Program-made: the position numbers and the translations under genes | Part shown: positions 1 through 18,889 of the stretch, in pieces | Layout: every line of letters starts with the position of its first letter | Position numbering within the stretch: the first letter of the stretch is position 1 | From: Bacteroidales bacterium | GTDB taxonomy: Bacteria; Bacteroidota; Bacteroidia; Bacteroidales; JAIOZK01 | Assembly (NCBI GenBank): GCA_021738625.1 | Contig: JAIPBS010000004.1 | Coordinates: forward strand, 1 to 64,000 | Direction: 5' to 3' | DNA length: 64,000 nucleotides | Notes under the pieces: generated by a model | Seen by the model: the letters and a program-made list of their open reading frames with translations, nothing else | The model's database searches: none | Told to the model about the DNA's origin: nothing

Positions 1-300
1 GACCACTTTCACACTGCAAATTAATAGAGCTTAACAGTGAACCGATCACTTGAAAGGACATTTTGTCGATGAAACGGCGCTTGATGAGTGATCGGGTCAC
101 TTTCCAGAAATTTGCCGGTGATTCGATTACTTGGGAATGTCATTTGATCAATGAAACGGCGCTTGATGAGTGATCGGGTCACTTTCCAGAAATTTGCCGG
201 TGATTCGATTACTTGGGAATGTCATTTGATCAATGAAACAGCAGTTGCTGAGTAATCGGACCACTTTTCCAAATTGGTTTAAGTGATCGGGTCACTTTCC
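1..300. repeat. 82-bp tandem repeat array (two identical units 71-152 and 153-234, degenerate units on both sides)
   Basis: gaaacggcgcttgatgagtgatcgggtcactttccagaaatttgccggtgattcgattacttgggaatgtcatttgatcaat is read twice exactly. A diverged third unit starts at 235 and a diverged unit precedes 71. Confidence 0.9.
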
Positions 301-302
301 CA

Positions 303-1607
303 TCAATCCCTTCCCCGCTCCGTCTTCACCATTTTCCTCAGCTCTGTCCTCAATACCTGCCAGTCGTCTTTGCCGGGCAAGAACTCTTTTCCTTTTGCCC
401 CTGACATTTTTACAAACAGGATCAGATGATAGATCATAGAAGCCAGGTAGGCGGCAGAAGCGGCCAGGCCTGCGCCAATGATGCCCAGCCAGGGGATCAG
501 GATGAAAACGCCGGGAATGGTGATGAGCAATCCCCAGGCCGAAGAATACATATTGTATTTGGGCTTGCCCATGCCGCTGAAATAATGGGCAAAGATCATG
601 GAGGCTGAAATGGCCATCAGCCCGATGCTGAGGCTAAGGATGACCGGTTTCAATCCACCGAAATCTTCCCCGAAAACATAAGTGAAAACAGAGGAGGGGA
701 TGGCCAGGATCACCAGCAGGGCGATCAAAGTTACGAACAGGGTGAATTTTAAAAGTTGTATGCTTATGCGTTTGGCGTATTCCGGATCGCGGGTGTTGGA
801 AATCCTCGAGAATTGCACTAGTGAAATGCTTTGCCCGATGATGCGCAAACCCTCCGTTAGTTGAACCCCGGCGGAATAAACACCCAGCGCACCCACATTC
901 AGGTGGGATTTGATCACGAAAAAGCTGAAGCGCTTGTTCATCAGCTGAATGATGTTGGCGAACTGCCCCATGCTGCCAAAAGCAAGGATCTCTTTGATCA
1001 TGGCCCCCGGTTTTTCGGGTCTGGCCACTTTGATGTTTTTGAACAGCATCCCGAAACTTGTCAGGATGGAAAGCCCCAATGCAACGTAAAGGGCGATCAC
1101 ATAAGACATCACTTCATGTTTCCTGAAAACGAAGATCATCAGGGCCAATACAATGGCGGTGGTAACGATCTGCAGAGAAAACACCTGGTTGTATCGTTTG
1201 ATCTTTTCCAGTCCTACCAGGAAATTGTAGTTTGAAAGGCAAAGCGCATTCATAAAGGCCAGCAGCAATATGTGATGCTCATAACCTGTGGCAACTATGT
1301 CGGAATAAATGCCGGGAAAAAGTGCCATCAATCTGAAAATAAAGAAAAACAGCATTAAAACCACTATGGCCCAACTGTAGGAAACCAGCAGCAGTGAAAA
1401 CAGCTTTTTACGGCTGCTGAAATACACCAGTGCGCTGCCTCCCAAAAAATCGTTCAACAACAGGATTATGCTGATGTCGAGGATGATCAGGCTGATGGTG
1501 CCCACGCCCTCCTTACCCAGGTAGTTGGTTGTGATCCACAGGGTCAGCAGGGTGAGCAGGGCATTGAGCAGCCGGGTGCCGGTGGTGCCGAGGATCTTAG
1601 TCAGCAT
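303..1607 (-). CDS. Polysaccharide biosynthesis flippase (Wzx/MATE-like membrane protein)
   Basis: 434 aa, many hydrophobic helices, N-terminus MLTKILGTTGTRLLNALLTLLTLWITTNYLGKEGVGTISLI typical of O-antigen/EPS flippases. Confidence 0.85.
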   Translation of the reverse strand: MLTKILGTTGTRLLNALLTLLTLWITTNYLGKEGVGTISLIILDISIILLLNDFLGGSALVYFSSRKKLFSLLLVSYSWAIVVLMLFFFIFRLMALFPGIYSDIVATGYEHHILLLAFMNALCLSNYNFLVGLEKIKRYNQVFSLQIVTTAIVLALMIFVFRKHEVMSYVIALYVALGLSILTSFGMLFKNIKVARPEKPGAMIKEILAFGSMGQFANIIQLMNKRFSFFVIKSHLNVGALGVYSAGVQLTEGLRIIGQSISLVQFSRISNTRDPEYAKRISIQLLKFTLFVTLIALLVILAIPSSVFTYVFGEDFGGLKPVILSLSIGLMAISASMIFAHYFSGMGKPKYNMYSSAWGLLITIPGVFILIPWLGIIGAGLAASAAYLASMIYHLILFVKMSGAKGKEFLPGKDDWQVLRTELRKMVKTERGRD

Positions 1608-3321
1608 GGCTTTGTTGTTCTGTGTTTAGATGGAGCAATCTTTTGAATTTCCTGCCCAACTGGTACCAGAGGTTTTGCACCAGAAAAGCAAAACGTTTGC
1701 CGTCGATCACCGCCAGATCCCCTGTAAAGTTGAAGGTATGCAACCCACCGTCGAATTTCGTTCCCTGTATGGCTTTAATGCCGGATACTGTGATTTCTTT
1801 AAATTCAAAGGGGCTCAGTTTTTGAACCTGGTTGATCAGGATACGCTTACCATAAGTTTCGGCGCAGTCCTGGGCGGGACGGTAAAGTTGCCCGTTCATT
1901 CTGAAGAAACTTCCCCCAGGCCTTGCCGAGTGGATATCCGTCTTCACAGGGTTGTTGGCATGCGGCAGGTAAGGGCCTTCAAAATTTTCTGCATGGTAAA
2001 TGTAAAGATGAACGCTGGGCAGCCTTCTCTTTGTGAAGAAAAGATAAAACCGCCCGTCCTGTTCAATCAGGGTTGGATCCACGGCATCGATCCCGTCCAG
2101 CAAAACCCTGTCGAAAATAAAAGTCTCCTTTTCCTTATCAAAACGGTAAAGACGGATCTGGTTTTTTTCAAAGGTTTCGGGTATGCAATATATCTGATCC
2201 TTATGCCTGAACACAGAAGGGTAGGCCAGGTGAAAATCTTCACTGATGACGGGTTGGAATTCCGAAAACGATCTTTTGGCCGGATCGTAAGAACCCATAC
2301 TGATCCTTCCTTTTCGTTCCGGGTAGTGATAATCTTCGGCAAGGATAAATGTTTTGTTTTTGTGCTCAAAAATGAAGGGATCGGCCAGGAAGTGCTTTGC
2401 CAAGGATTTGGGATGCCAGGCTGCATCTTTCAATTGTATTTGTCCGTCATCGGAAATATGAGTTTCTGCCATGGCTATGTTCCAGTCTTCCACTTTGAAC
2501 AGCTCTTTTAGATGAAAACGTAATTTGTTTAAAATTAGCTTGCAGCAGAATCCAATGAACTGAAAATTGGAAGGTATGTGGTAAATCGGTGCTTCGCTTT
2601 GGCCCGGCCATGGGCTGAAAATACCGCTTCTGATCTCATTGCACAAAAGCACCGGCCAGGATGTGCTTTCGTAATACGCCTGGTCGATATTGGCCGAATA
2701 GCTGTGAAAGACGGTTTTGAAATAGCCTTTTTTCAGAATGACGCCGGCATCCAGCTTTTCGGTAAGCTTTTGAAGGATAACACCATTCACCGGGTCGTTT
2801 TTATAGATTTCCCAGAATGCCGGCGGACCGCCGCGGTATTTCTGCTCATCGTCGTGATGAAAGCTCCAGATACCGTATTTTGCCGCATCCAGGATTTCCC
2901 CTTTTAAAATATTGAAGCCGAAACGCAAAATAAAATCCAGGCAATGATCTTTGATCCGATCAATGTCTTTCTCTAAAAAGCTGTCGGTATGTTTTGTTTG
3001 TTTTGTCCGGCAGCGGATGGTTTCACATTCTTCGATGAGGGGATGGATCGACACCCGTTTCTTGGCTTTCGGGCGGAGCAGATAGCGGTTATAAAGATTA
3101 TAAAGCAACTTTTCCCAGGGATATGTCCTGAGTTTATTAAGAAAAGAGGTTTTATTGGGGATATTGTCATTCAGGATCAGCAGAGCTGCCTGGTTTCCAT
3201 CCTTGATCAGTTTTTCGATGCACAGGTATTGCCAGTGTTCGACCGTCAGGCTGTTCAGCATCAGCCCGAAGCGAAAGCTTTGTTGCTTCTGAATCTCTTC
3301 TTGTTTATGATTATCCGGCAT
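1597..3321 (-). CDS. Formyltransferase-like domain fused to a beta-propeller (GH43-like / glucosamine inositolphosphorylceramide transferase-like) protein
   Basis: FHHDDEQKYRGGPPAFWEIYKNDPVNGVILQKLTEKLDAGVILKKG resembles the formyltransferase substrate loop. C-terminal half ADPFIFEHKNKTFILAEDY..YPSVFRHKDQIYCIPETFE..DPTLIEQDGRFYLFF is five-bladed-propeller-like. Overlaps the flippase by 11 bp. Confidence 0.7.
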   Translation of the reverse strand: MPDNHKQEEIQKQQSFRFGLMLNSLTVEHWQYLCIEKLIKDGNQAALLILNDNIPNKTSFLNKLRTYPWEKLLYNLYNRYLLRPKAKKRVSIHPLIEECETIRCRTKQTKHTDSFLEKDIDRIKDHCLDFILRFGFNILKGEILDAAKYGIWSFHHDDEQKYRGGPPAFWEIYKNDPVNGVILQKLTEKLDAGVILKKGYFKTVFHSYSANIDQAYYESTSWPVLLCNEIRSGIFSPWPGQSEAPIYHIPSNFQFIGFCCKLILNKLRFHLKELFKVEDWNIAMAETHISDDGQIQLKDAAWHPKSLAKHFLADPFIFEHKNKTFILAEDYHYPERKGRISMGSYDPAKRSFSEFQPVISEDFHLAYPSVFRHKDQIYCIPETFEKNQIRLYRFDKEKETFIFDRVLLDGIDAVDPTLIEQDGRFYLFFTKRRLPSVHLYIYHAENFEGPYLPHANNPVKTDIHSARPGGSFFRMNGQLYRPAQDCAETYGKRILINQVQKLSPFEFKEITVSGIKAIQGTKFDGGLHTFNFTGDLAVIDGKRFAFLVQNLWYQLGRKFKRLLHLNTEQQSHAD

Positions 3322-3555
3322 GCAAGCGCATTTACAGGCAAATGTAAGATAAAATGTCTTTTACCAAAACCCTGCGAGCTTATGTTCATTAAAAAGTTTG
3401 AAGTTTGATCTTGCACTGGATGTTTGTGAATAAAACCCTCGTAGGATTGCCGGGGTGGGCTTTGTCCAAAAATCTGAAATCTGGAATTTAAAACCACGCT
3501 GGGCAATGAAAAGCCAGTTTTGAAATATTTTAATTATTAGCAAAAAAACCATCCA

Positions 3556-3843
3556 ATGGGCTACATGGGCTTCGGCATCCAAAGGTGGATTTACACCATG
3601 CGTCCGCGTAAACCCTTTTCAGGAAGGCGGCAGCGAGGGACGGGCATGGATCAGGATACACCGGCCCGAAATATGAACATTTCAGGCACTGCAATCCGCA
3701 TCCCCCAGCGTTTAAGAGAAAATATAAATCAAAGGATGAATGAAATGGGCCGAAAATGGTTGCTCGACCGAATATTTACCATGGCTTATGCAGCTATACT
3801 GATAGGGGTTGTGGTTTATGTATTGGTGAGATTTGTGTTCTAA
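3556..3843 (+). CDS. Small basic protein with a C-terminal transmembrane helix (start may be 3598, MRPRKPFSGRR)
   Basis: ORF with C-terminal hydrophobic segment IFTMAYAAILIGVVVYVLVRFVF; same strand as and close to the downstream operon. Confidence 0.45.
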   Translation: MGYMGFGIQRWIYTMRPRKPFSGRRQRGTGMDQDTPARNMNISGTAIRIPQRLRENINQRMNEMGRKWLLDRIFTMAYAAILIGVVVYVLVRFVF

Positions 3844-3893
3844 CTTTAGAATGCAAAAAATAAACTACATTTGAAGCTTTATGTTTTAAAGCC

Positions 3894-4961
3894 ATGAAAC
3901 CGGCAAAAGACATTTTGATCGGTCTAAACTTCAAACAAGTGCTTTGGGCTCAGTTTGCGGCCATCACCATTTGGTTCCTGATTTCGATCATTCAATGGGC
4001 CAATAATCCCAAAGGCAACCTGGGCATTTTAATACCAATCATTGTGAGGGGTGTCGAGGGCTTATCCATATGGGTTGCATCGGGTGTATTAGTGATCATA
4101 CTGAACGTCCTCCTTAAACGGGTCAGGCAACTCCTTGCCTTTATGCTGGTTTTCCTGATGATCTATCCGGTTGCTGTACTCGCCAATTTATTGTCAATTG
4201 GCATACGTTCGCTAATTGGATATTCGGCGCCACCCCTTGGAAATTTCTTTTTTGTGCATAGTCTGCATTTTTTTATTCCCTTATTGCTTATTCTTGTATT
4301 TGTTTCAATGCTCCACTTCAGGCACTCACTCCAAACTATGCGTATAAAGGCATTGCAGGCAGAATCCCTTTCCAGGGAGGCAAACTGGTTGATGCTGCGC
4401 TACCAGGTCAATCCCCATTTTTTATTTAACGCCCTGAATTCCATCAGGGGGCTGATCGGCCTGGATGATGAAAAGGCAAGAGAATCAATTACTGAAATGT
4501 CGGATTATTTTCGTTACAGTTTGTTTGTAAATGATAAAAGCTTGGTCAGTATAAAGGAAGAAATACAGGCTGTCAGGAGCTATCTCAATATTCAAAAAAT
4601 GCGATATGGCGAAAGGCTTGAATTCGAAATTTCAGAACAAGACAACATTTCTAAGTTTGTGATCCCGGTATTTGCCATACAAACACTTGTTGAAAATGCG
4701 GTTAAATATGGATTGAAAAGCACTGATGAAAAAGTGGCCGTCGAGCTTATGCTATTGAAATCCGGGGAGGATATAATGGTTGAGGTTATCAACACAGGCA
4801 GGCTGTTTCCTGCAAGCAATGAAGAAGGAACAGGTACCGGTCTGGAGAATTTAAGAAAACGTCTTGAAATAATTGATCCCGGAAATGAACTAAAACTTAA
4901 TCAGGAGGATGGAAAAGTGAAAGCCAGCATGATCATGAAAATCATTCCACCGGGAGTATGA
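3894..4961 (+). CDS. LytS/YpdA-family membrane sensor histidine kinase
   Basis: HisKA_7TM-like membrane part, then RYQVNPHFLFNALNSIRGLIGLD (His_kinase motif) and HATPase GTGTGLENLRKRL. Confidence 0.92.
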   Translation: MKPAKDILIGLNFKQVLWAQFAAITIWFLISIIQWANNPKGNLGILIPIIVRGVEGLSIWVASGVLVIILNVLLKRVRQLLAFMLVFLMIYPVAVLANLLSIGIRSLIGYSAPPLGNFFFVHSLHFFIPLLLILVFVSMLHFRHSLQTMRIKALQAESLSREANWLMLRYQVNPHFLFNALNSIRGLIGLDDEKARESITEMSDYFRYSLFVNDKSLVSIKEEIQAVRSYLNIQKMRYGERLEFEISEQDNISKFVIPVFAIQTLVENAVKYGLKSTDEKVAVELMLLKSGEDIMVEVINTGRLFPASNEEGTGTGLENLRKRLEIIDPGNELKLNQEDGKVKASMIMKIIPPGV

Positions 4962-5680
4962 AGACCTGGGATACCATAATCGTAGATGACGAACCACTGG
5001 CCAGGTGGGAAATGCAACGGTTGCTTGAACCTTTTGGTCAAATTCGGGTTGTTGGTGAAGCTGCTTCGGTAGCGGAAGCAAATGAGCTCATCAATAGATA
5101 CACACCTGACCTTTTATTTCTTGATATTGATCTGGGTACGCAAACCGGATTCGACCTGATTGATCAAATCAATAAAAAATTCCATGTGATCTTCGTCACC
5201 GCTTATGATGAATATGCAATCAGGGCTTTTCAGGTAAACGCCCTTGATTATCTTTTAAAGCCCGTGAATCCTGAACGTCTGAACGAAAGCATTTCCAGGT
5301 TGGGTCATCCTCACCGGGATGATCCGGGTTTTTTATTAAAACCGCAGGACCGGCTTTTGATCAGCCAGAGAAATGCTTCATGTTTTATTCGGGTTGCGGA
5401 TATCTCGATTATTGAGGCGAGGGGGGATTATACATTCGTTTATACCCAAGATGGGAAAACAGGATTGACTCATCAGACAATGAAAAGGTGGATGGAACGC
5501 CTGCCTGCCGATTTGTTCCTTCAGGTCCACCGCTCTTACATAATTAATCTCGAAATGGTAAGTGAGGTGATAAAAAAGCCAGATGGAAATTCATACATCA
5601 TAATGAAAAAAACGGCAAATGAAATTCCTGTGAGCCGCACACAGCTTAGTAACATTCGAAAACGTTTCCTTCCCGGTTGA
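4958..5680 (+). CDS. LytTR-family response regulator
   Basis: REC domain (IIVDDEPLARWEMQRLL..DLLFLDIDLG..FVTAYDEYAIRAF) plus LytTR DNA-binding domain (ISIIEARGDYTFVYT..VHRSYIINLEMV). ATGA overlap with the kinase. Confidence 0.93.
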   Translation: MKTWDTIIVDDEPLARWEMQRLLEPFGQIRVVGEAASVAEANELINRYTPDLLFLDIDLGTQTGFDLIDQINKKFHVIFVTAYDEYAIRAFQVNALDYLLKPVNPERLNESISRLGHPHRDDPGFLLKPQDRLLISQRNASCFIRVADISIIEARGDYTFVYTQDGKTGLTHQTMKRWMERLPADLFLQVHRSYIINLEMVSEVIKKPDGNSYIIMKKTANEIPVSRTQLSNIRKRFLPG

Positions 5681-5709
5681 TTCGTCGAATATTACCACCA
5701 TTCGTCGAA
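5680..5709 (+). promoter_or_regulatory. Candidate LytTR binding site: direct repeat ATTCGTCGAA x2 at 20-bp spacing
   Basis: attcgtcgaa at 5680-5689 and again at 5700-5709, just after the regulator stop codon and 60-90 bp before the esterase start. Confidence 0.5.
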
Positions 5710-5771
5710 AATATAAGCGAATGATTAAGTTAAAAATGCAAGTTTGCAGGCATGATAAATTTTAGGCACTC

Positions 5772-6791
5772 ATGAAAGTTAACCCTGTTTTTTTTGGCGT
5801 ATTTGTATTGGGGATGCTATTGGTAAATACAAAAGCGAATTCGCAGCAGAATGTCTTTGATAGTTTGTTTGCAAAGGTTGACAGCCTTGCGAAGAATGGA
5901 CTGTATTATGAGGCACTTGGTCTGATCACCGGTCTACAACCCCAATATGCAGACAATTGGTTTGAGCTTTCAAAAGAGAAAATATATCTCAACGAGAAGC
6001 TGGGCCATAATGAAGAAAATCTCACAATTTTCAGGAACGGGCACCAAAAGGGATGGTTTTATTTTATCCATCCTGCATTGGCAAAGTATGATCCTTACAA
6101 AGAACTGCCGGGTTTTGATTCCATAGCATGGAAAGACATGGAGTTAAGGGAAGCGGCTTTAATTGATTCCCGAACCATTTATGAAGTAGAGCAGCCGTGC
6201 AATTGTTGCATGGGCAAAAGTCATCCTGTAATGCTGATTTTCCATGGGGGTGGCAGTAACCTGGCCAGGGTGAAAGAACACTGGCATTCGCCCATTTTGG
6301 ATTCATGCTTTATCAATATTTATTTGCAGTCATACAGGCATTATGATTCACAAACTTATGGGTGGCGCTCCGGCGATCCCCGGGCTGATGAGGACATTAG
6401 GAATATACTAAGAGATGTAATACAGAAATATGATGTTGATACCAATGCCATTTACCTATCGGGGATTTCGGCAGGTGGGACATATGCGCTTGATATTCTG
6501 CTTCGAAATGTAATGCCGGCAAAGGGTGGACTGCTGTTTTGCCCGGGTATGCCCTATCAGTTCGAAGAATTGTATAAAAATGAAAAGCTTAATTTTGACT
6601 TCACGCTATATATGGTGGGCGGTGAATATGATTTTTATCTTGAAAAACAGAAAATGATGCTTCCTGTTTTCAAAGAAGCAAAACTACATTACCTGCATGT
6701 TATCGTGCCAGGTTTGGATCACCGGTACCCACCGGATGAAGACTATTATATTGATGAAGCCTTGAAGTATTTTTTTAATCAATCACCATGA
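5772..6791 (+). CDS. Exported alpha/beta-hydrolase (esterase / phospholipase-carboxylesterase-like)
   Basis: Signal peptide; oxyanion motif LIFHGGGS; nucleophile elbow LSGISAGGTYAL; C-terminal His region VPGLDHRYPPDED. Confidence 0.75.
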   Translation: MKVNPVFFGVFVLGMLLVNTKANSQQNVFDSLFAKVDSLAKNGLYYEALGLITGLQPQYADNWFELSKEKIYLNEKLGHNEENLTIFRNGHQKGWFYFIHPALAKYDPYKELPGFDSIAWKDMELREAALIDSRTIYEVEQPCNCCMGKSHPVMLIFHGGGSNLARVKEHWHSPILDSCFINIYLQSYRHYDSQTYGWRSGDPRADEDIRNILRDVIQKYDVDTNAIYLSGISAGGTYALDILLRNVMPAKGGLLFCPGMPYQFEELYKNEKLNFDFTLYMVGGEYDFYLEKQKMMLPVFKEAKLHYLHVIVPGLDHRYPPDEDYYIDEALKYFFNQSP

Positions 6792-7939
6792 AAGGAAAAT
6801 TATATTTACTGATCGTATTGTCGCTGTTGCTTTTTGCCTGCAATCCCGAGAGCTATATTGATAAAAGAAATAATCTTACAATTTTGCACTTATTTGGGAG
6901 CCCTTATGAACGGGGCTTCGACCATGGCAAATTGTTAAAGCCACAAATTGATTCCATCATCAAAAGATGGATGATTGAAGTTGAGAACACCTACCATCAG
7001 GATTTCGAGGGAGCTATAGAGGTTTTTTCTAACAATACCACTTTCAGAGATACCGTGGGTCGCTATCATCAAGAGATTATAGAGGAAATCGAAGGGATTG
7101 CTGATGGTAGTGGGCAGGCATACGAAACCATGTTGGCTTTTCAGATGAGTGAGGAAATTGAGGCTTTTGCGGAGGAGCTTGCCGAAGGACATTGCACCGC
7201 AATCAGCGTGAACAAAACAGATACGACTCCTACCATACTCGCACAGAATATGGATCCGCCACCATGGATGCATGGAGCCCCAACCTTACTGCACATCTAT
7301 GACGATGATAAGGAATTGTATGTTTATACTGTCCCTGGGTTTATCGGCCTAGACGGAATGAACTCGAAAGGCATTGGGATTGCCTTTAATGGCATTTCCA
7401 TGTTGAGTCACTCCAGGGAGGGATTGCCGGTTTCCTTTATTGTTAGAGGGGTGTTGGATTGCACATCCGAAGCTGCAGCATACAGATATATCGAGCAGGT
7501 ACCGATTGGCGTGCCACAGTGTTTTACTATTGGCGGTCCGAAAGAGGCCCGGTGTTATGAGTGTTCACCGAATGAAAAACAAATTTTTTATCCTTTTGAT
7601 GAAAAGAACATTAGCTTCCATACCAACTTCTCATTAGCCAATCGGGATTTCAACCAATACTATATAGATTTGTTAGCTGAATATGGACGCACGGTGGATG
7701 ACCCCTATTTTTGTCCGCGCTACTTTTTGTTATATGATAAAATTGAGGAATGCGATCGTCAATTAAATGCAGTAATGATTAAGGAATTACTGAGCCTGAC
7801 TGTACCAGAAATTCATCCCATATCCAATAACAATACCTACGGATGTCTTGTTATGGGGCTGTCTGAACACCCTGTACTGCATATCGCGGCGGGAAAACCG
7901 AACGAAACCGAATTTATCAGACTTTCCTTTGATGAATAA
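6788..7939 (+). CDS. C45-family (acyl-CoA:6-APA acyltransferase-like) Ntn hydrolase lipoprotein
   Basis: Lipobox LLLFAC; GSPYERGFDHGKLLKPQI; candidate nucleophile GHCTAISV; MNSKGIGIAFNG. ATGA overlap with the upstream gene. Confidence 0.75.
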   Translation: MKGKLYLLIVLSLLLFACNPESYIDKRNNLTILHLFGSPYERGFDHGKLLKPQIDSIIKRWMIEVENTYHQDFEGAIEVFSNNTTFRDTVGRYHQEIIEEIEGIADGSGQAYETMLAFQMSEEIEAFAEELAEGHCTAISVNKTDTTPTILAQNMDPPPWMHGAPTLLHIYDDDKELYVYTVPGFIGLDGMNSKGIGIAFNGISMLSHSREGLPVSFIVRGVLDCTSEAAAYRYIEQVPIGVPQCFTIGGPKEARCYECSPNEKQIFYPFDEKNISFHTNFSLANRDFNQYYIDLLAEYGRTVDDPYFCPRYFLLYDKIEECDRQLNAVMIKELLSLTVPEIHPISNNNTYGCLVMGLSEHPVLHIAAGKPNETEFIRLSFDE

Positions 7940-7944
7940 TTGTA

Positions 7945-9888
7945 ATGAAATCACATTTTATACATATAGCATGTTTTTGTTTTGTGCTACTGGTTGATCC
8001 TTCCCTGGCTCAAAACAGAGCGAAAAATGATTCTTCCTTTCATGATTTTATCTCAGGTGAAAAATGGTTTTTTTGTGATTCATTGAAGAATTCAGGTATT
8101 GATGCAGAGGTGTTGACTGCATTCTCGGGAGCGGGTCATTTACCTGCCGGAATAAAGATTCTGTTTAGCAATCCAGGTCAAATACCCGAATTTAACTGGC
8201 ACATGGGGGAATTGTTCATTGCTTCAGCTGATCAACCATCCGGGCTATTTTATTTGGCGTACGGACTGTTAAGTATGTCTGCCGGAGGTTATGGCCCGCC
8301 CTTGAGTGGCGTAGCCCTGCCCTGGGAAAGAAATTTTTATGAATATGATGTTGATATGGTGGAGAAATTGATCAACGATGTTATAATTAAGATTGATAAC
8401 CATGACCTGACACAGTGGCGAAAGTTGCCTGATAAGCTGAAAAAATATATTTTACATTTGTTATTCAAGATGCATAGCTGTGCTGAGATGATTGCTGTTT
8501 ACCGGGAACCATTGCAGGATATAATAAGTGAAGTGGTTGAAGATGAAGGATTGTCTTTGATTCAGCGTCTTATGCGACCCTGGACCGAACGGCAGATGAT
8601 ATCATTTGAAAGTCTTGATTTAATAGATAAAGTTGATCAAAAAAAGCTTTCATTTTCAACCAGGTTGTTGATGGATGAATTTTCCCGACTGCCGAAAGAC
8701 CTGTTTATGTCGGTCGACAGTTCTTTTGAAGGCTGTTGTTTCGAAAGTGCTTGCGGCAGGGTTGCAATTACGGGTATTCAGGTTGATACCATACAAGGTG
8801 ATTATTGCCTGGTGTTGGATCTTGGTGGTAATGACCGCTACATTGGCAATATTGCCGCCTCCTCAGCGAACGTTCCTGTTAGCGTTCTAATAGACTTTCA
8901 GGGTGATGATACTTACCAAAGCGAAAATTCTCAGATCGCTTCGGGAATTGCCGGCATTGGAGCTTTACTGGATTTTGACGGAGACGATATATACTACTGC
9001 AGAAGCCATGGACTGGGATTCTCTATATTCGGTAGTTCAATTTTGTATGATTTCAAAGGGAATGATTTTTACAATAGTACTAAGGGTCATTCGCAAGCTT
9101 CGGCCTTTGTCGGGGCTGCGATGCTTATTGATAAATCGGGGGATGATATTTATTCCTGCTGCGCTTATTCTCAGGGTTTCGGTGGTTCATTGGGGGTAGG
9201 CGTATTCCTTGATTTAGAAGGAAATGACCATTACAATTGTGAACAGAGCCGGGGCGATCAACCTGCCTTTATACAGGGAGCCGGCTATGGCCGTTGTGCT
9301 GAAGCAACAGACGGTCACTCTCTGGCAGGTGGTTTTGGGATCTTTATTGAAGCCGATGGCGACGACAGCTATTTTGCAGGAAGTTTCGCACAGGGCGGCG
9401 CTTATTTTTTAGGTGCAGGTCTTTTTTATGAGAGATCAGGTGATGATACATACAACGCCCTGACACATAGCCAGGGGTATGCGGTACACAAGGGCCTGGC
9501 ATGTTTTATTGATCAAAAAGGTGATGATGTATACAATGCAGCCTGTGATCCCAGGAAAATGACCCAGGCCATCGGAGGTGGAAGGGACCATTCCGTGGGA
9601 TGGTTCCTGGAAGGGGCCGGGCAAGATACCTATCATTTCGGTAACAGAAGTGTAGGGGTTGGCGATATGAATGGCCTGGGTTTTTTTTGGGATTTCAGCG
9701 GCAGCGATCTCTATTACCATCATAATAATAACATTTACCGTAATGTTCCATCTATGGGTAAGTCATTTGACATTTTCAACGGAATGAAAACCGGATCCGG
9801 AATATACGGTAGGTTTGGATTAAGAAATCATGGAGTATTTTTGGATCAATCCGGTAACAATGCATTTTTCTCGAAAGATGAACCTTAA
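7945..9888 (+). CDS. Exported GDDxY-repeat (solenoid) protein
   Basis: Signal peptide; about 8-9 repeats of type (L/F)xDxxGDDxYxxxxxSQGxxxxxGxGxLxDxxGDD (e.g. LIDFQGDDTYQS, LLDFDGDDIYYC, LIDKSGDDIYSC, FIDQKGDDVYNA). Confidence 0.75.
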   Translation: MKSHFIHIACFCFVLLVDPSLAQNRAKNDSSFHDFISGEKWFFCDSLKNSGIDAEVLTAFSGAGHLPAGIKILFSNPGQIPEFNWHMGELFIASADQPSGLFYLAYGLLSMSAGGYGPPLSGVALPWERNFYEYDVDMVEKLINDVIIKIDNHDLTQWRKLPDKLKKYILHLLFKMHSCAEMIAVYREPLQDIISEVVEDEGLSLIQRLMRPWTERQMISFESLDLIDKVDQKKLSFSTRLLMDEFSRLPKDLFMSVDSSFEGCCFESACGRVAITGIQVDTIQGDYCLVLDLGGNDRYIGNIAASSANVPVSVLIDFQGDDTYQSENSQIASGIAGIGALLDFDGDDIYYCRSHGLGFSIFGSSILYDFKGNDFYNSTKGHSQASAFVGAAMLIDKSGDDIYSCCAYSQGFGGSLGVGVFLDLEGNDHYNCEQSRGDQPAFIQGAGYGRCAEATDGHSLAGGFGIFIEADGDDSYFAGSFAQGGAYFLGAGLFYERSGDDTYNALTHSQGYAVHKGLACFIDQKGDDVYNAACDPRKMTQAIGGGRDHSVGWFLEGAGQDTYHFGNRSVGVGDMNGLGFFWDFSGSDLYYHHNNNIYRNVPSMGKSFDIFNGMKTGSGIYGRFGLRNHGVFLDQSGNNAFFSKDEP

Positions 9889-10963
9889 ATCAACACTGGT
9901 ATTGTATGTACTTGCATTGCTCTTATGTTGGCATAAAACTCATGCATGCACGGTGTTTTGTCTGTCGGGCAAGCAATGCATTTTGGTGTCAAAGAATCTC
10001 GACTGGTACGCAGACCCAGGTATGATCATGCTGAATCATGCAGGTGTCCGAAAAGAAATTTTCGGTCTGGAGGGTAAAACTTTAAGTTGGGTATCCGATT
10101 ATCGGAGTGTTACATTCAATCATTTTGGAAAAGAATTTCCATTGGGGGGTATAAATCAGAATGGCCTTGTGGTTGAGGAGCTAAATTGCCCGGATTACGG
10201 ATTTAGCTCTGATCCCAGTAGGTTTTTGTCAAATGAATTTCAATTTGTGCAATACTTATTAGACAAATGTAGCAATGTGGAAGAGGTGTGTCAAAAAATC
10301 AATGGAATTCAGATTAAGCCACTGCTGGTTGCTTTGCATTATTTTGTCGCTGACCGGCATGGGAATATTGCTGTGATTGAACCCCGGAAAGATGGTTTTA
10401 TATGCTATAGCGGATCCGACCTTCCTTTAAAAGTACTAAGTAATAATAACTATCTGGAATCAATCCGGTACACCCGTAATTTTGCAGGATTTGGAGGGGA
10501 TTTACCTGTTCAAACAGAACGAAAGGGATCCAATGATCGGTTTGTTTCTGTATCAAGTTTAATAAAAGAAGCTCCTAACAAATGCTCTGTTGATTTTGCT
10601 CTTGCTCTTCTTGATACTGTGAGCCAAGAAGATACACGTTGGAGTATTGTGTATGATATTGTCGGGATGAAGATATATCTGAAATTTTACAATTGCTGTG
10701 ATTTAAAGACATTTGAGCTTGATGGTTTATTTTCAGATTCTTATCCGGATACCACCATCGGTTGCAGATTGGAAGATTGTTTTTGTATAAGATCGGATGA
10801 TTTTAAAATAATCACAACCAAAGAAAACAAAAACCTTATGAATGAAGTAATCAGCTTATTTCGTTCAAAAGCTATGCTTGAAGAAAAGCATCATCTCATG
10901 CGCGCAATGATCTTATTTGGAAACAAATTTTTGCCGACATCAACTGGCAACAACGATCGGTAA
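9878..10963 (+). CDS. Linear amide C-N hydrolase, choloylglycine hydrolase family (exported)
   Basis: Start taken at 9878 (MNLKSTLVLYVLALLLCWHKTHA|CTVFC). Cys follows the predicted signal peptide; LVSKNLDWYADPG and GGINQNGLVVEELN are family motifs. Overlaps the previous stop by 11 bp. Confidence 0.8.
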   Translation: MNLKSTLVLYVLALLLCWHKTHACTVFCLSGKQCILVSKNLDWYADPGMIMLNHAGVRKEIFGLEGKTLSWVSDYRSVTFNHFGKEFPLGGINQNGLVVEELNCPDYGFSSDPSRFLSNEFQFVQYLLDKCSNVEEVCQKINGIQIKPLLVALHYFVADRHGNIAVIEPRKDGFICYSGSDLPLKVLSNNNYLESIRYTRNFAGFGGDLPVQTERKGSNDRFVSVSSLIKEAPNKCSVDFALALLDTVSQEDTRWSIVYDIVGMKIYLKFYNCCDLKTFELDGLFSDSYPDTTIGCRLEDCFCIRSDDFKIITTKENKNLMNEVISLFRSKAMLEEKHHLMRAMILFGNKFLPTSTGNNDR

Positions 10964-11038
10964 TCTCCTTTGCCCTGTTCAGCTTGCTTTTTACATTTGT
11001 TTTGCATTTTTAGTAAGATTCAGTATATACTAAGCAGT

Positions 11039-13210
11039 TTATTTTTCAAAATTGTTCACTCTCTCAATCAGGTCCCGGTTTTGCTGCTGCAGTTCCCGGA
11101 TCATCTCCTGCTGCTCCTGCATGGCCTTCACCAGGTAGGGGATCATTTCGGTGGAGTAAATCCCTTTTTCACCACCTGCATTTTCTCCAACAAGTTCAGG
11201 TATTACAGCTTCCACTTCCTGTGCGATGAAACCAATTCCCTGCTTTCCGCTTTCTTTCCAGTCGAAGGTGACCGGCCTGAGTTGCATTACTTTGTCCAGG
11301 CTGGAGGAGAAGGTAATGATGTTTTCTTTGAGTCGCCTGTCGGAGGGATTGGTGTTGGTCAAAAAGCCCGAATTGGAATAAACTGTTCCGGTTGCAAGGT
11401 TATGCACCTTTACATCCCCGTCCGCCTGAACGGTCATCCTGATCAGGCTGTTGGTTCCAAATTGCAGGTCATTATTGGATTCATGCATAACATATAACGA
11501 ATTTACGTTGGCTCCGGAATAAAGATTATCCGTTTCGCCATTGAATCCGATTGCTCCTTTAAACAGCGTTCCATCCTGGCGAAATTCAAGCCTGGGGTTT
11601 TCATCTTCACCTCCGGTATTGTTATCGGTGTCTGCCTGGATGATCAGCATGGCGTCGGTTGTACTGGAAATATGCAAATGAGCTTCGGGTGAGGTGGTTC
11701 CGATGCCAACATTCCCATCCGGCTTCCATGTCATGCGTATGACTTCATTTCCTATCCATCCTTTTGTCCACAGGTGTAGCTTATTGCTTGAACCTGAATA
11801 CTGGAGTTCATACCCATAGTAATTGTTCGCTTCTTTTTCCAATAGTTGTATTGAAGCATTTTCTTCATCACCACCTGAGATTTTGAGAGATACATCCTCC
11901 GTATCCTGAATATGTAGTTTTTCTAAAGGGTTAGCGGTACCAATTCCCAATCTTTTGTTAAGCAGGTCGCCGTACAATATCTCAGGTCCCCCCAGCACCA
12001 TCTGATAGCTCCCATCGTTAACCGGAAGTTCCTGGTCAAAGCCCAGTACAATATTGTTGTGGCCAGAGCCCCAGATATTCCTGCCGGCGCCATATCCAAC
12101 AAATATGTTGTTGTAGCCCTGATTTTGGTTGTTGCCACCCCCCTGATAACCAGCACCTGAATTGGCTCCGATAGCTGTGTTTTTTATGCCATTGGTGTTG
12201 GAGGTTGAGTTGTTGTAGATTAAAGAATAGTAACCAACAGCAGTATTCAATGCCTGATAAGTAGTTCCGTTGTTTTCAAAATCCAGTTTTGATAATGCGT
12301 TGGTACCTACCGCGCAGTTATTTGAACTATTAGTGTTATTTGTAAGAGCCAGCGTTCCATAAGCTGTATTTCCATCGCCTTTATTGTTTTGTAAAACAAA
12401 TGCTCCGACTCCTGTATTGGCCTGCCCGGTTATTAGTTCATGCAGGCAATAAAAACCGATCCCTGTATTATAGTATCCTGTGGTGAGTTTCTGCAGGCTA
12501 TTGCATCCTAAAGCTGAGTTGTTGTAACCCTTTGTAAGTGAGTAGAGTGATTTTTCGCCAATACCTGTATTGGCAGCTCCTTCATGCATCTGAGTAGATT
12601 GTATGCTAAGATTCCCTGCATTTTTTCCAAGAAATGTGTTTTCGCGCCAAGCTCCATCCGGAACATAATTGTGGATAAACCTGGAAGCACCTTTATAAAT
12701 AACTCCCTCTGCATTAAGCGTATTCGGTATTTTGATTGAACCTGTTATCTCAAGTTGCTGGGTTGGATCATTGGTTCCTATCCCAATACAGCCATTATTT
12801 TCGATGGTTAATCTTTCTGAGTTTTGCGTGAAGAATCTTACATGATCTTCATCCCCGCTGGCCTCTACCTCAACTCTTGTGTCACCGTCGGCGTCGGCCA
12901 GTCGGGTAATGAGGGTGGAACTCAGCCTGATCCATTCCGCACCTGTGAAATAGTAAAAGCCGGCAGGGCTATCGGTTTGGTAAACAAGCAAGCCGGTTGC
13001 CGGGTTTGTGATGTTCCCGCGCTGGGTGGCATCCATACGGGGAATCAACAGTCCTCCGGTGGTGGATTTCACATCCAGCATGGCGGAGGCGTCGGGGGGA
13101 TCGCCGGTTTCATTTACGGCAACACCTTGTGAATACAGGTTAACAGATATGCAAATTAAAATGACTGCAAAAGCTGTATTGATCTTTTGGGGGTAATTCT
13201 GTGTTTTCAT
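11039..13210 (-). CDS. Surface/tail-fibre-like protein with C-terminal chaperone-of-endosialidase (peptidase S74) domain
   Basis: Signal peptide; GDPPDASAMLDVKSTTGGLLIPRMDATQR N-domain; NTGIGxxSL / NTAxGxxAL head-like repeats; SDRRLKENIITFSSSLDKVMQLRPVTFDWK..QGIGFIAQEVEAVIPELV. Confidence 0.85.
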   Translation of the reverse strand: MKTQNYPQKINTAFAVILICISVNLYSQGVAVNETGDPPDASAMLDVKSTTGGLLIPRMDATQRGNITNPATGLLVYQTDSPAGFYYFTGAEWIRLSSTLITRLADADGDTRVEVEASGDEDHVRFFTQNSERLTIENNGCIGIGTNDPTQQLEITGSIKIPNTLNAEGVIYKGASRFIHNYVPDGAWRENTFLGKNAGNLSIQSTQMHEGAANTGIGEKSLYSLTKGYNNSALGCNSLQKLTTGYYNTGIGFYCLHELITGQANTGVGAFVLQNNKGDGNTAYGTLALTNNTNSSNNCAVGTNALSKLDFENNGTTYQALNTAVGYYSLIYNNSTSNTNGIKNTAIGANSGAGYQGGGNNQNQGYNNIFVGYGAGRNIWGSGHNNIVLGFDQELPVNDGSYQMVLGGPEILYGDLLNKRLGIGTANPLEKLHIQDTEDVSLKISGGDEENASIQLLEKEANNYYGYELQYSGSSNKLHLWTKGWIGNEVIRMTWKPDGNVGIGTTSPEAHLHISSTTDAMLIIQADTDNNTGGEDENPRLEFRQDGTLFKGAIGFNGETDNLYSGANVNSLYVMHESNNDLQFGTNSLIRMTVQADGDVKVHNLATGTVYSNSGFLTNTNPSDRRLKENIITFSSSLDKVMQLRPVTFDWKESGKQGIGFIAQEVEAVIPELVGENAGGEKGIYSTEMIPYLVKAMQEQQEMIRELQQQNRDLIERVNNFEK

Positions 13211-13428
13211 CGGTTTGTCTGTTATGAATGTATGATTGGTTTATTCTATAAATTAACTGGCATCTAAAAATAAACGTTTTTTGACTGTATTTCAGGTTTT
13301 TATGGCTTGAGTTAGCAAAAGGTAAAGTTGATAATATAAGAGGTTGATTTAGCGGGATGAGCGGCAATGAAAAAAGCTGTTATCGGAGCCTCCGGTTGTT
13401 TGATTTTAATTGGCTATACTAAAAAAAT

Positions 13429-13623
13429 CACTACTGTCCGGGGAAATTTTGGGAGATTCCTCGCTTCGCTCGGAATGACATGCTATTTGGGAGATACAAA
13501 GGGGGTTGGGGATAGTACGGCGGCAAAGCCGCCGTACTATCCCCAACCCCCTCCCAAGCCTCTGAAAGCACTGTCATTCCGAGCGAAGCGAGGAATCCCG
13601 TTGCGTTTAACCGGACAGTAGTG
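13429..13623. mobile_element. Palindromic MITE-like element, copy 1 (13-bp terminal inverted repeats, perfect 24-bp hairpin core)
   Basis: TIR cactactgtccgg / ccggacagtagtg; inner arms gattcctcgcttcgctcggaatgaca / tgtcattccgagcgaagcgaggaatc; core hairpin 13501-13551. Confidence 0.8.
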
Positions 13624-13822
13624 TAAAAAAATAGTAAAACATTTAACTGCAAGGAGCGTAAAGTCTCACGCAAAAGACGGCAGGATTTACCTTGTGTATT
13701 TATATGTATTTTCCGACGCGCTACATTGGTGAAATTGCTATATCTCTCAGCCTATGTAACATATTTTATAGTTTTTGAAACAATGATGGTTCCAATTCGG
13801 AAGCTTTAATTGTACTTTTATA

Positions 13823-13868
13823 CCGATTTGGAACAGCTTTGCAATGATTGACCTTCTGCTCCAATCGG
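13823..13868. repeat. 46-bp inverted-repeat motif, copy 1
   Basis: ccgatttggaacagctttgcaatgattgaccttctgctccaatcgg; aligns without gaps to 46050-46095. Confidence 0.6.
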
Positions 13869-13898
13869 TAAAATGGATTTAACAAACACGCTAAGAAA

Positions 13899-16151
13899 AT
13901 GAAGAAAATAAAAATTATTCTGACATCAGTGTTGATTATAGCCGGCTTTACCATGCAGGCACAGGTGGCCATCAACACCGACGGCAGCAATGCCGACAGC
14001 TCGGCCATGCTGGATGTAAAAAGCATTGATAAAGGCTTGTTGCCCCCGAGAGTGACAGCAGTTCAACGGGACGCCATCACCAACCCGGCGGCAGGGCTTA
14101 TCATCTATTGTACCGATAGCTCGAAATTGGAAATTTATAATGGCACAGAATGGTTAAACATGAGTGACGACGCCGATAATAATCCCACAAACGAATTGCA
14201 AACCCTTTCAGTAAACGGAGATCAGCTTGAGATCAGCAACGGCAATAATGTCAGTTTACCTGGTGATGATCTGGGCAACCATATGGCAACCCAGAACCTG
14301 AAGATGAACGGCAAATGGATTTCAGGTGATGGAGGAAACGAAGGTATCTGGATGGACAATAGTGGAAAAGTTGGGGTAGGGAGGACCAGTCCTGTTACGG
14401 ATCTGCATATTTATTCCTCCGGTTCATGGTCAAAACCTCATTTTGCTATTCAGGATGTCGATAACGATATAAGTTATTTACTGCAATCATCCGAGGGTTT
14501 GGTGTTCAGGAATCAAAATGCACAGGGTACGGAAAATGCTTTTAGTTTCCGTAGATCTGACAATGGACATTTGTTGGACATGCATTCAAATGGAAATGTC
14601 GGGATAGGAACAAGTTCTCCCGCTTCAAGACTGGAAGTTAATGGTACAGTAACAGCTACCTCTTTTGAGGGCGATGGTTCAGGATTGACCGGGGTTTCGG
14701 GTGACAATCTCGGAGATCACACGGCAACCCAAAACCTTAAAACGAATAATTACTGGATTTCAGGCGATGGAGGCAATGAAGGGATATGGATAAACAATAG
14801 CGGAAACATAGGGATCGGAACCAATAATCCTTCATACATACTTGACGTTACCGGGAATCGTATCCGGATAAAGGAAAACAGTACTGGTGATTGGATGGCT
14901 ATGCGCACGGATGGCAGCGCACTCGACTTTCAGTTCGAAGGCAACAATCTTTATATGCAAAGTACAACCTCAGGCGAACATATTTTGTTGAATCCAGGTA
15001 TCAATAACTATGTAGGGATACGCACAACCACCCCCGAAGCATCGTTGCATATTGGATACGGCAGTCCCGCCTCATTATCTGGTGGTGGCTATCTGATTGC
15101 CGGATCACTTTCTTCAAAAAACATAGGTATGGATAATGATGAGATCCAGGCCAGGAATAATGGCTCATCATCTATACTTTATCTTAACCCCGAAGGGGGA
15201 AACATTGTGTTAAATCAAAATGCAGGCAAAGTAGGTATCGGAACACTGTGGCCGGGAGCTCCGATGGAAATTGCCGCCCAATCCGACCTGCCCACCTTAC
15301 TCCTTGACAGAGCTTCCGGTGAGGCAAGCATCGAAAGTACCGACGATGACTTGATTTTGGAGAGTGGTGGCAATTCAGTCGGGATAAATTATTACTGCAG
15401 TGACGATATTGTATTGGCAAATGGTGGAGGTAAAGTGGGAATTGGAACATCAAGTCCAGGAAACTTGCTGCATGTCCATGGTAATGGAACTTCTACTGGA
15501 GGAGTAGCGGGTTATAATGAAGTAGTCGGAAGGTTTAGGTCATTTTATGGTCATACTGCTTTGTCTATAGATGTTAATGGTTTGACATATGATCCAATAT
15601 TATACTTTTCTCATAGTGGCGGTGCAAAATGGGGCATACGTAGCGATGGCAGTACGGGGGAATTTCAAATTCGCTATCAAGATAATGGGGCTAATTCTAC
15701 CTTATTCAGTCTTGATGGTGTGGGAATATGGCTTGAGGGAAGAATAGAAATGGGTGGCGACATCGAAGTTAGTGAAGATAATAGTCAATGGATAGGTTTT
15801 TTAATGGAAGCTCATGCGATGATACATTCTCATAATTTCTTAGTAACGACTAAGAATATAATTTTAAATAAATCTCATAACCTAAAACAAGGACTATCAG
15901 CCTTGTCAAAACTAACTCCTATTACCTATGAAGTTGAAAATAATGAATATTTCACTTCAAAAATCGGAATTGATCCAGTAGAATTAAAGGAAGCCATACC
16001 CGAGGCTGTGGTTATGCCGGAAAATCCGGGTGAAAATTACGGAATTGATTATAACCAAATTATCCCTGTTCTGATAAAAGGAATACAGGAGCAACAGAAG
16101 ATGATCGATGATCTGACAAAACGCATTGAGGAACTGGAAAATGAATTATAA
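13899..16151 (+). CDS. Surface/tail-fibre-like protein, divergent S74-like C-terminus
   Basis: AINTDGSNADSSAMLDVKSIDKGLLPPRVTAVQR N-domain and repeated NSGxxGIGTxxP stalk; C-terminus LTPITYEVENNEYFTSKIGIDPVELKEAIPEAVV lacks SDRRLKENI. Confidence 0.8.
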   Translation: MKKIKIILTSVLIIAGFTMQAQVAINTDGSNADSSAMLDVKSIDKGLLPPRVTAVQRDAITNPAAGLIIYCTDSSKLEIYNGTEWLNMSDDADNNPTNELQTLSVNGDQLEISNGNNVSLPGDDLGNHMATQNLKMNGKWISGDGGNEGIWMDNSGKVGVGRTSPVTDLHIYSSGSWSKPHFAIQDVDNDISYLLQSSEGLVFRNQNAQGTENAFSFRRSDNGHLLDMHSNGNVGIGTSSPASRLEVNGTVTATSFEGDGSGLTGVSGDNLGDHTATQNLKTNNYWISGDGGNEGIWINNSGNIGIGTNNPSYILDVTGNRIRIKENSTGDWMAMRTDGSALDFQFEGNNLYMQSTTSGEHILLNPGINNYVGIRTTTPEASLHIGYGSPASLSGGGYLIAGSLSSKNIGMDNDEIQARNNGSSSILYLNPEGGNIVLNQNAGKVGIGTLWPGAPMEIAAQSDLPTLLLDRASGEASIESTDDDLILESGGNSVGINYYCSDDIVLANGGGKVGIGTSSPGNLLHVHGNGTSTGGVAGYNEVVGRFRSFYGHTALSIDVNGLTYDPILYFSHSGGAKWGIRSDGSTGEFQIRYQDNGANSTLFSLDGVGIWLEGRIEMGGDIEVSEDNSQWIGFLMEAHAMIHSHNFLVTTKNIILNKSHNLKQGLSALSKLTPITYEVENNEYFTSKIGIDPVELKEAIPEAVVMPENPGENYGIDYNQIIPVLIKGIQEQQKMIDDLTKRIEELENEL

Positions 16152-16243
16152 GCTTATAAAGGCAGCCCTGCACCTGCCCGGTGATGTTCTCACCGAAGGT
16201 GGATGGTAGAAAAGATAGATTCTATTGAGGCTGCTATAAATGA

Positions 16244-18889
16244 TCAATTCCCGCTACCTTCCAATTTCTCCATCCGTTTCAATAACTCCTCATTCATTTG
16301 CTGCATCTGCATTATGCTGTTTTGCTGGCTGTTAATGATCTCCTGCTGTTCCTGCATGGCTTTCACCAGGTAAGGGATCATCTCGGTGGTATATATTCCT
16401 TTGTATCCATCTGGGTTTTCCCCAACGAGTTCCGGTATAACAGCTTCCAGTTCCTGTGCAATAAAACCGATACCATGCTGACCGCCTTCCTTCCAGTTGA
16501 AGGTGACCGGCCTGAGTTGCATTACCTTATCAAGGCTGAGGGAGAAAGGGGTGATGTTTTCTTTGAGTCTTCTGTCGGAGGGGGCGGTGTTAGTCAGAAT
16601 GCCATTTACCGAATAAACCGTGCCCGAACCAAGATTATGTATTTTAACCCACCCGTCATAAGTCACAGTTAGTCTTACCGTATCGTTGGCACCAAGGTGT
16701 AAATTTGAATTATATTCATTCATCAAATATAAAGCATTTCCATTTGTCCCTTCATAAATTGAACCATCCAGACCAGTATATCCCAACGCCCCCTGAACTG
16801 TCCCGCCATCCTGTCTAAGCTCCAATCGTGGGTTGTCATCTTCACCGCTGTTATCAGTGTCAGCTTCCAAAATTAAACCTGCATCCAAAGTGTTTGCAAT
16901 ATGCAGTTGGGCCAGGGGAGTGGTTGTTCCCAGGCCAACATAACCGGTTTTAAGCCAACTCATCCTGATGTCTTCGTTACCGGTATAATTTCTTGACCAA
17001 AGATGAAGTTTGTCATTGCTGCCGTCATATTGAAATTCGAAACCGTAGTCACCGGATTCGAATAGTTTTAAAGAGGATGTGTCCGCACTGCCGGCGATGA
17101 TTTTTGCCGAGACGTTGTCCGTTCCGTGTACATGAAATTTGTCCGATGGAGTATCCGTACCGACCCCCACATATCCATCGTCATCTATTCGAATTCCTTT
17201 ATTCGTGCCACCTTTCACTGATAGTTGTATATAACCGTCGGCAATTAACCAACTTGACCAAGGGCTGTTGTGTCCTGCTTCATTTTTTCCGATATAAATG
17301 GATTTTGTTGAACTGCTGGCGAAAATATTCCCATCGCCGGAGGCAAACTTAATATCTCCATTTATAGTTAGTTCTTCAGTTGGAGCAGAAGTGCCGATTC
17401 CAACTTTAGCGTTCAGGAAGTTGACCTCGTCAGTGGCCTGGTCATCAAATTCGATCCTTCCGGCAGAAGCTCCTAATCCCAACCATTGATTATCGGCGGA
17501 AGCACCTGAGAACACACTTCCGGATGTCATAGAACCGACTGCGGTGATATCTCCTGTACCGCTCCAGCTAAGTACTCCCGAGCCATCTGTTGTCAGTACT
17601 TCACCGCTTGCACCATCATCAACAGGCAAGGTGTAGGTGATATCACCACTTTGATCACCTCCCTGGAATATGGTGTGATAGGTTGGGGAAGCACCGCCTT
17701 CAATGATGCCAAAATCACCGTTTAGGGTGAGTTTTTGGTTGGGGGTTATGGTACCTACTCCCACTCTTTTATTTAGCAGGTCGCCATATATAACATTCTG
17801 GTCACCTAAAACCATTTGGTAATTGCCATCAGCATCAGGCAGGTCTTTGTCATACCCTAATACTATATTGTTGTGAGCGGTCCCTTCAATATTAATCCCT
17901 GCAGCACATCCAAGAAATATATTGTTATATCCCTGATTGTAATATCCTCCGTATCCAGCCATATATCCCAAAGCAGTATTGTTTATTCCGTTGGTATCCG
18001 AATTAGGATCTGTATAAAAAAGGCTGAGTGAACCAATGGCCGTATTACAAGCATGGTAATATTGTTCATTGTTATTGTAACCAAATGCTTTTAATGCACT
18101 CATCCCAAATGCACTATTATAACTACCATAGCTGGCAGATTTCAATGCCCATGCACCACAAGCAGTATTGCCACCTCCTCCTTTAATATTTCTCATACTA
18201 AAAAACCCTAAAGCAGTATTATATGATCCCGATGTAAGCCCCTGCAGGCAATTATATCCAATGCCCGTATTGTGATTTGCTGAAGTCATGGAAAGATTAC
18301 CTGCATTTAATCCCAGAAAAGTATTATTGCCATCTCCAATTGGTGGTTTGAAATTATGCAGAAATACCGAATTATCTTTATAGATTATTCCATTTGAATC
18401 AATTGTTGAACTAAGTGTAATTGAACCAGTTAATTCCAATTGTTTCCTGGGAGATGAGGTTCCGATCCCCACATTACCTGCAGTATCAATAATCATTCGC
18501 AGGGAATCCTTTACCTTAAAACGGATTTTGTCCTCATCAGCATTTTCCTCCACTAACACCTTTGTATCTCCATCTGCGTCTGCCAGTTGAGTGATGAGGG
18601 TAGTGCTGAGCATGATCCAGCCGGAGCCGGTATAATAGTAAAAACCCGCTGTGCCGTCGGTTTGGAATACCAGAAGTCCGGTTGCCGGATTTGAGATGGA
18701 AGCTCGCTGGACGGAATCCATTCGGGGGATCAGCAATCCTTTATTCGTTGAACTTACATCCAGCATGGCGGAAGCGTTAGCGGAATTTCCGCTTTCGTTG
18801 ATGGCCACGCCCTGGGCATTTCCTTCGAATGAATTGCTCATGATAAGCAAAGCCAGTAAGAAAAATCCCAATTGTTCTAATTTTTTCAT
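16244..18889 (-). CDS. Surface/tail-fibre-like protein with S74 domain
   Basis: Same architecture: AINESGNSANASAMLDVSSTNKGLLIPRMDSVQR; NTAxG repeats; SDRRLKENITPFSLSLDKVMQLRPVTFNWKEGGQHGIGFIAQELEAVIPELV. Confidence 0.85.
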   Translation of the reverse strand: MKKLEQLGFFLLALLIMSNSFEGNAQGVAINESGNSANASAMLDVSSTNKGLLIPRMDSVQRASISNPATGLLVFQTDGTAGFYYYTGSGWIMLSTTLITQLADADGDTKVLVEENADEDKIRFKVKDSLRMIIDTAGNVGIGTSSPRKQLELTGSITLSSTIDSNGIIYKDNSVFLHNFKPPIGDGNNTFLGLNAGNLSMTSANHNTGIGYNCLQGLTSGSYNTALGFFSMRNIKGGGGNTACGAWALKSASYGSYNSAFGMSALKAFGYNNNEQYYHACNTAIGSLSLFYTDPNSDTNGINNTALGYMAGYGGYYNQGYNNIFLGCAAGINIEGTAHNNIVLGYDKDLPDADGNYQMVLGDQNVIYGDLLNKRVGVGTITPNQKLTLNGDFGIIEGGASPTYHTIFQGGDQSGDITYTLPVDDGASGEVLTTDGSGVLSWSGTGDITAVGSMTSGSVFSGASADNQWLGLGASAGRIEFDDQATDEVNFLNAKVGIGTSAPTEELTINGDIKFASGDGNIFASSSTKSIYIGKNEAGHNSPWSSWLIADGYIQLSVKGGTNKGIRIDDDGYVGVGTDTPSDKFHVHGTDNVSAKIIAGSADTSSLKLFESGDYGFEFQYDGSNDKLHLWSRNYTGNEDIRMSWLKTGYVGLGTTTPLAQLHIANTLDAGLILEADTDNSGEDDNPRLELRQDGGTVQGALGYTGLDGSIYEGTNGNALYLMNEYNSNLHLGANDTVRLTVTYDGWVKIHNLGSGTVYSVNGILTNTAPSDRRLKENITPFSLSLDKVMQLRPVTFNWKEGGQHGIGFIAQELEAVIPELVGENPDGYKGIYTTEMIPYLVKAMQEQQEIINSQQNSIMQMQQMNEELLKRMEKLEGSGN

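Follow-up and report, generated by a model that had tools for sequence, protein, structure and literature searches.

A LytS/LytTR two-component system with a candidate operator beside an operon of exported hydrolases in a Bacteroidales bacterium

LytTR response regulators recognise two repeats of 9–11 nt that are spaced 11–13 nt apart and lack a common consensus (PMC4847170); the spacing is 12 bp in most sites (PMC6193735). In Escherichia coli, the YpdA/YpdB system pairs a kinase with a LytTR regulator, and two ∼10-nt direct repeats, 11–13 nt apart, precede its target yhjX (PMC4847170). In the LRS of Streptococcus mutans, tandem repeats lie beside the LytTR regulator gene and the target promoter, and a membrane inhibitor protein is used (PMC6193735). 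We analysed a 64,000-nt stretch of a Bacteroidales bacterium genome (contig JAIPBS010000004.1, positions 1–64,000, forward strand; hereafter the window), in which the locus at 3894–10963 resembles both. As in YpdA/YpdB, a kinase and a LytTR regulator are accompanied by two direct repeats of this size ahead of the target, but here the spacer measures 10 nt, the target operon encodes exported hydrolases and the operator is a candidate based on sequence. As in the LRS, the repeats lie beside the regulator gene and the target promoter, whereas the window locus pairs a histidine kinase with a receiver domain.

The locus comprises six ORFs on one strand, and an ORF check returned the positions and strand given in the preliminary description, bearing out its picture of a same-strand cluster with tight junctions (Table 1). 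The kinase and regulator genes share a 4-nt ATGA overlap (4958–4961), the hydrolase and C45 genes overlap by 4 nt (6788–6791), the C45 and GDDxY genes are 5 nt apart (7939/7945), and the GDDxY and amidase genes overlap by 11 nt (9878–9888) when the amidase is started at the ATG opening its signal peptide (9878); the mechanical ORF begins at 9830. A 91-bp gap between regulator and hydrolase (5681–5771) was absent from the preliminary description. The same description had called the first two genes a coupled LytS/LytTR pair, and this is upheld by their Pfam domains and phosphotransfer residues. The kinase contains His_kinase (2.6e-26, 92 bits) with the phospho-acceptor His175 retained in NPHFLFN, and the regulator contains the LytTR DNA-binding domain (3.7e-23, 82 bits) and a receiver domain, Response_reg (1.9e-22), with Asp56 in LFLDID. 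The candidate −7 box upstream of the kinase gene is weak evidence alone, because TAnnTTTG matches the window 68 times against 60 expected. A pattern search found no perfect TAnnTTTG box in the regulator–hydrolase gap, and an Rfam search of the window gave no match.

Table 1. Features of the LytS/LytTR locus (window coordinates)
Feature	Position	Strand	Basis
Bacteroidota-type −7 box candidate TACATTTG	3866..3873	+	pattern TAnnTTTG; 20 bp 5′ of kinase gene
LytS-type membrane histidine kinase, 355 aa	3894..4961	+	Pfam His_kinase PF06580
LytTR response regulator, 240 aa	4958..5680	+	Pfam LytTR and Response_reg
Candidate LytTR operator ATTCGTCGAA-N10-ATTCGTCGAA	5680..5709	+	perfect 10-bp direct repeat, 20-bp period
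Exported putative alpha/beta hydrolase (esterase-like), 339 aa	5772..6791	+	weak Pfam, PDB match, motifs
C45 autoproteolytic acyltransferase/hydrolase, lipoprotein	6788..7939	+	NF040521
GDDxY-repeat exported protein, 647 aa	7945..9888	+	motifs, AlphaFold2; family-less
Choloylglycine-hydrolase-family amidase, 361 aa	9878..10963	+	PF02275

Other features of the window lie outside the locus. Upstream, at 1597–3321, is a GINT1_N domain protein (glucosamine inositolphosphorylceramide transferase 1; 131 bits) that adjoins a polysaccharide flippase. Downstream, at 11039–23522, 'GIGTxxP' repeats characterise four long exported proteins. A Peptidase_S74 chaperone domain ends at least two of them, and the one at 19302–23522 carries six LVIVD repeats besides Peptidase_S74. 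Within this region, a MITE-like element at 13429–13623 has 52-nt inverted arms (83% complementary) with ends CACTACTGTCCGG/CCGGACAGTAGTG, and encloses a 25-nt perfect hairpin (13500–13552); the element has no Rfam match. Three copies of it (72–77%) are present in a same-genus genome (G001).

The candidate operator consists of two direct repeats within the 9–11 nt range close to a target gene, at a period within the expected ∼20–22 bp, although its 10-nt spacer is slightly shorter than published. At 0 mismatches the arrangement occurs once in the 4.1-Mb genome, and the chance expectation with up to three mismatches is 0.02 matches per 64 kb. A related locus with the same gene order was found in G1082, a genome from another family of the same order, where the same gap contains CTTATCGAA twice at a lag of 20 bp, just 3′ of the regulator stop codon. 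Such a repeat arose in 9 of 200,000 mononucleotide shuffles of the window gap and in 59 of 200,000 of the G1082 gap, these shuffles preserving base composition only. An alignment of the two loci on TCGAA shows differences at three core positions, each identical in both copies of the repeat, which is the pattern expected were a single regulator to read both copies. Together, the sequences strongly indicate a LytTR-type operator at 5680–5709 that would be bound by the adjacent regulator. In the literature searched, we found no proposed operator for any Bacteroidota LytTR regulator.

We surveyed 28 LytTR genes for repeats in the window genome and one same-genus genome. Two others in the window genome (L180 and L194) are directly followed by near-identical 15-nt repeats at a lag of 21, each obtained in 0 of 1000 dinucleotide shuffles. 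The same-genus orthologue of L180, L175, retains its repeat. The L180/L175 operator candidate, TGCCGT[A/T]AACTGATT twice at lag 21 (L180:1797–1870; L175, reverse strand), is thus kept in two species, 5′ of genes encoding a small membrane protein and a carboxypeptidase-regulatory/receptor-like product. The L194 repeat (reverse strand), ACCA[T/C]TCGTAACAAA twice at lag 21, precedes an exported protein with beta-helix-like repeats. We also considered a general LytTR box based on the TTCGTCGA repeat, which a phylum-wide search recovered in 43 of 398 genomes; its matches resemble scattered coding sequence and a reversed-pattern control gave similar counts, and the idea was rejected.

The first gene after the operator encodes a putative alpha/beta hydrolase with a weak match to Pfam Abhydrolase_6/BD-FAE (∼24 bits, under the cut-off) and a match to PDB 5f2h (5e-11); Ser233 (GISAGG), Asp287 and His317 were assigned by motif. 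For two further products, the calls of C45-type Ntn acylase lipoprotein and choloylglycine-hydrolase-type amidase in the preliminary description are confirmed by NF040521 and PF02275. Like other C45 members (NF040521; isopenicillin N acyltransferase, 2x1d), the acylase scores above the curated cut-off (1.6e-46; 159 bits against 85), matches 2x1d (3.7e-08) and keeps the predicted nucleophile Cys136 and Asp156, both invariant across 7 aligned members. It differs in being a lipoprotein (lipobox LFAC with Cys18, read by eye) and in having a His before the Cys.

In common with choloylglycine hydrolases (CBAH), the amidase has a signal peptide followed by the catalytic Cys, with Asp, Asn and Arg positions kept (Cys24, Asp42, Asn189 and Arg221); by alignment to 8bls, the Asn is BSH-type. 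Across 8 aligned members, Cys24, Asn189 and Arg221 are invariant and Asp42 is present in most. Catalytic positions are kept in the C45 protein and mostly kept in the amidase, which departs from choloylglycine hydrolases in its score of only 38.9 bits to PF02275 (1.1e-09, cut-off 20.4; PDB 3hbc, 3e-07), in Lys39 at the Arg18 position and in its regulated operon context. Bile salt hydrolases and penicillin V acylases use the catalytic set Cys2, Arg18, Asp21, Asn175 and Arg228 (PMC8066178). The amidase matches the other four, but since Arg18 is replaced by Lys39 we name it a CBAH-family protein and not a bile salt hydrolase, and bile-salt-hydrolase activity is doubtful. Among its relatives this position is Lys in L114, Arg in L204–L208 and Phe in L209/L210.

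The GDDxY protein has a helical N-terminal part followed by 11 coils of ∼26 aa with the motif [DE]-x2-G-x-D-x-Y, and nothing in Pfam, NCBIfam or PHROGs matches it above cut-off. AlphaFold2, run on 10 sequences only, predicted a beta-solenoid (pLDDT 70.6, pTM 0.78) with a low-confidence N-terminal part, and a Foldseek comparison with the PDB found nothing significant. In the model, G-x-D turns recur along the solenoid as in RTX-type Ca2+-bound beta-solenoids (antifreeze protein, 3p4g), but there is no significant sequence or fold match to these. Assignment as RTX was rejected, as RTX has a GGxGxDxUx nonapeptide whereas the repeat here is D-x2-G-x-D-x-Y with a period of ∼26 residues. By profile search, 29 of the 398 Bacteroidota genomes sampled encode relatives, with the window genome as the sole representative of its class; order-level searches later added a few more. 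Beyond Bacteroidota, relatives occur in WOR-3, Cloacimonadota, Caldisericota, Planctomycetota and Lentisphaerae, and plasmids and phages gave no match. In the other Bacteroidota neighbourhoods read, no C45, CBAH or hydrolase gene lies beside GDDxY; its neighbours are vertical, housekeeping-type genes such as guanylate-kinase-like and YicC-like genes. In L024/L026, a T9SS C45-like protein with a Por_Secre_tail is encoded a few genes downstream of GDDxY. We rejected this as a recurrence, with an oxidoreductase and a nadD-like gene standing between the two. We tentatively suggest that the solenoid is a metal-bound structural or binding partner, a role we regard as possible.

The preliminary description had proposed that the four exported genes be sought together elsewhere, counting a lack of recurrence as refutation, and by this criterion the outcome was negative: no other sampled genome holds all four. 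A concatenated hydrolase, C45 and CBAH query found only single, stand-alone relatives in 392 genomes of the class. In 394 genomes of the order, it found C45 relatives of 56% and 50%, a CBAH relative of 43% and one close hydrolase of 47%, in G1082. The C45 and CBAH relatives (26–56%) stand alone in every neighbourhood read. The searches covered a phylum sample and the concatenated ones scored few candidates per genome, so loci may have been missed. These results bear on whether the four genes form a fixed pathway for extracellular N-acyl/O-acyl remodelling of one substrate, such as an N-acyl amino acid, AHL or bile-salt-like amide. One operon does combine an esterase-like protein with two Ntn enzymes that belong to amide-cleaving families with Cys nucleophiles, and AHL cleavage is known for some penicillin V acylases (PMC8066178). 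However, the sampled genomes yielded no second copy of the set, a serine hydrolase replaces C45 in G1082, searches revealed neither a T9SS domain nor another surface signal, and the CBAH protein has Lys at the Arg18 position; we consider this pathway quite unlikely.

The G1082 locus is the one other occurrence of the core that we found; none of the 8 genomes of its family or 170 G1082 relatives yielded a third, and the same-genus genome G001 has no synteny with window positions 1–16000. The G1082 kinase and regulator (L243) are 49% and 47% identical to those of the window. Contig C149 carries both and ends inside the hydrolase gene, and the reverse strand of contig C244 opens with the remainder. 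The ends have 13 bases in common and the hydrolase frame is continuous, but the genome is fragmented (350 contigs, 3% contamination) and the locus depends on this inferred join. The hydrolase homologue (L243/L256) is 44–47% identical. A 469-aa lipoprotein, a PF00144 serine hydrolase with a beta-lactamase fold (82.5 bits), occupies the C45 slot and is followed by GDDxY (L256; 42% over the full length), and in a tree of 23 GDDxY proteins the window and G1082 form a clade (support 100/99). The amidase slot holds a small membrane protein whose gene overlaps GDDxY. Just upstream of the G1082 kinase are two adjacent PF00144 beta-lactamase-family genes (L243:4705–7364).

No C45 or CBAH match was found in G1082, and two Ntn amidases therefore do not define the module, contrary to the preliminary proposal. 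Since other proteins fill those slots, we define the conserved core without them: as read from the two loci, it is kinase–regulator–operator–hydrolase–[exchangeable lipoprotein hydrolase]–GDDxY, with the two Ntn enzymes as variable cargo. The absence of both from G1082, and the solitary state of their relatives, would also fit a partly chance assembly, in which the LytTR pair controls the hydrolase and GDDxY genes while the C45 and CBAH genes are unrelated insertions, co-transcribed without joint function. We think this unlikely: the junctions are tight (4, 5 and 11 nt), the C45 slot in G1082 contains another lipoprotein hydrolase, and the G1082 membrane protein is 47% identical to one following the 43% CBAH relative in G1023, which hints at linked swaps. 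A more specific version of the regulated module, in which a LytTR switch and hydrolase/GDDxY core take C45, PF00144 and CBAH enzymes in fixed positions with the solenoid as enzyme scaffold, is a minority possibility that we entertain.

The claimed coupling of the pair to the downstream genes gains support from the candidate operator and from the core order recurring in G1082, and on this sequence evidence regulatory coupling is well supported. We conclude that the LytS/LytTR system probably has its own dedicated output operon. In the model, the membrane kinase would sense an envelope cue and phosphorylate the regulator, which would bind the tandem repeat and presumably activate the operon. The predicted destination of the products is the periplasm or outer membrane. 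Of the proposed surface module, export is indicated by one lipoprotein and three ordinary signal peptides (read by eye with the lipobox), but surface display gains no support, as none of the four exported proteins has a T9SS cargo domain (C-terminal Por_Secre_tail); periplasm is the default location. The putative alpha/beta hydrolase and GDDxY solenoid would form the output core. The second gene would supply an exchangeable lipoprotein acyl-hydrolase (the C45 Ntn acylase in the window locus and, in G1082, a serine hydrolase with a beta-lactamase fold), and the choloylglycine-type amidase would be a further optional enzyme.

N-acyl/O-acyl chemistry is what family membership would predict for these enzymes. 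The likeliest role, which we hold with about even confidence, is induced cleavage of acyl bonds (ester, amide or lactam-like) within a small molecule or a component of the envelope. The families of all three variable enzymes include lactam-acting members: C45, CBAH and PF00144 are kin of penicillin acyltransferase, penicillin V acylase and beta-lactamase, respectively. With the two further PF00144 genes upstream of the G1082 kinase, this could suggest beta-lactam/beta-lactone detoxification or an envelope-stress module, the enzymes being alternative inactivators of acylated lactams. However, each of the three families is broad, with most members acting on non-lactam substrates, and we judge such a function very unlikely.

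For the regulated output operon, binding and induction are directly testable, because regulator, operator and targets sit within one 7-kb stretch. Our results suggest a controlled enzyme module that was previously undescribed. As far as the literature searched shows, this is the first operator proposal for a Bacteroidota LytTR regulator, and an uncharacterised, widespread beta-solenoid family gains a testable context.
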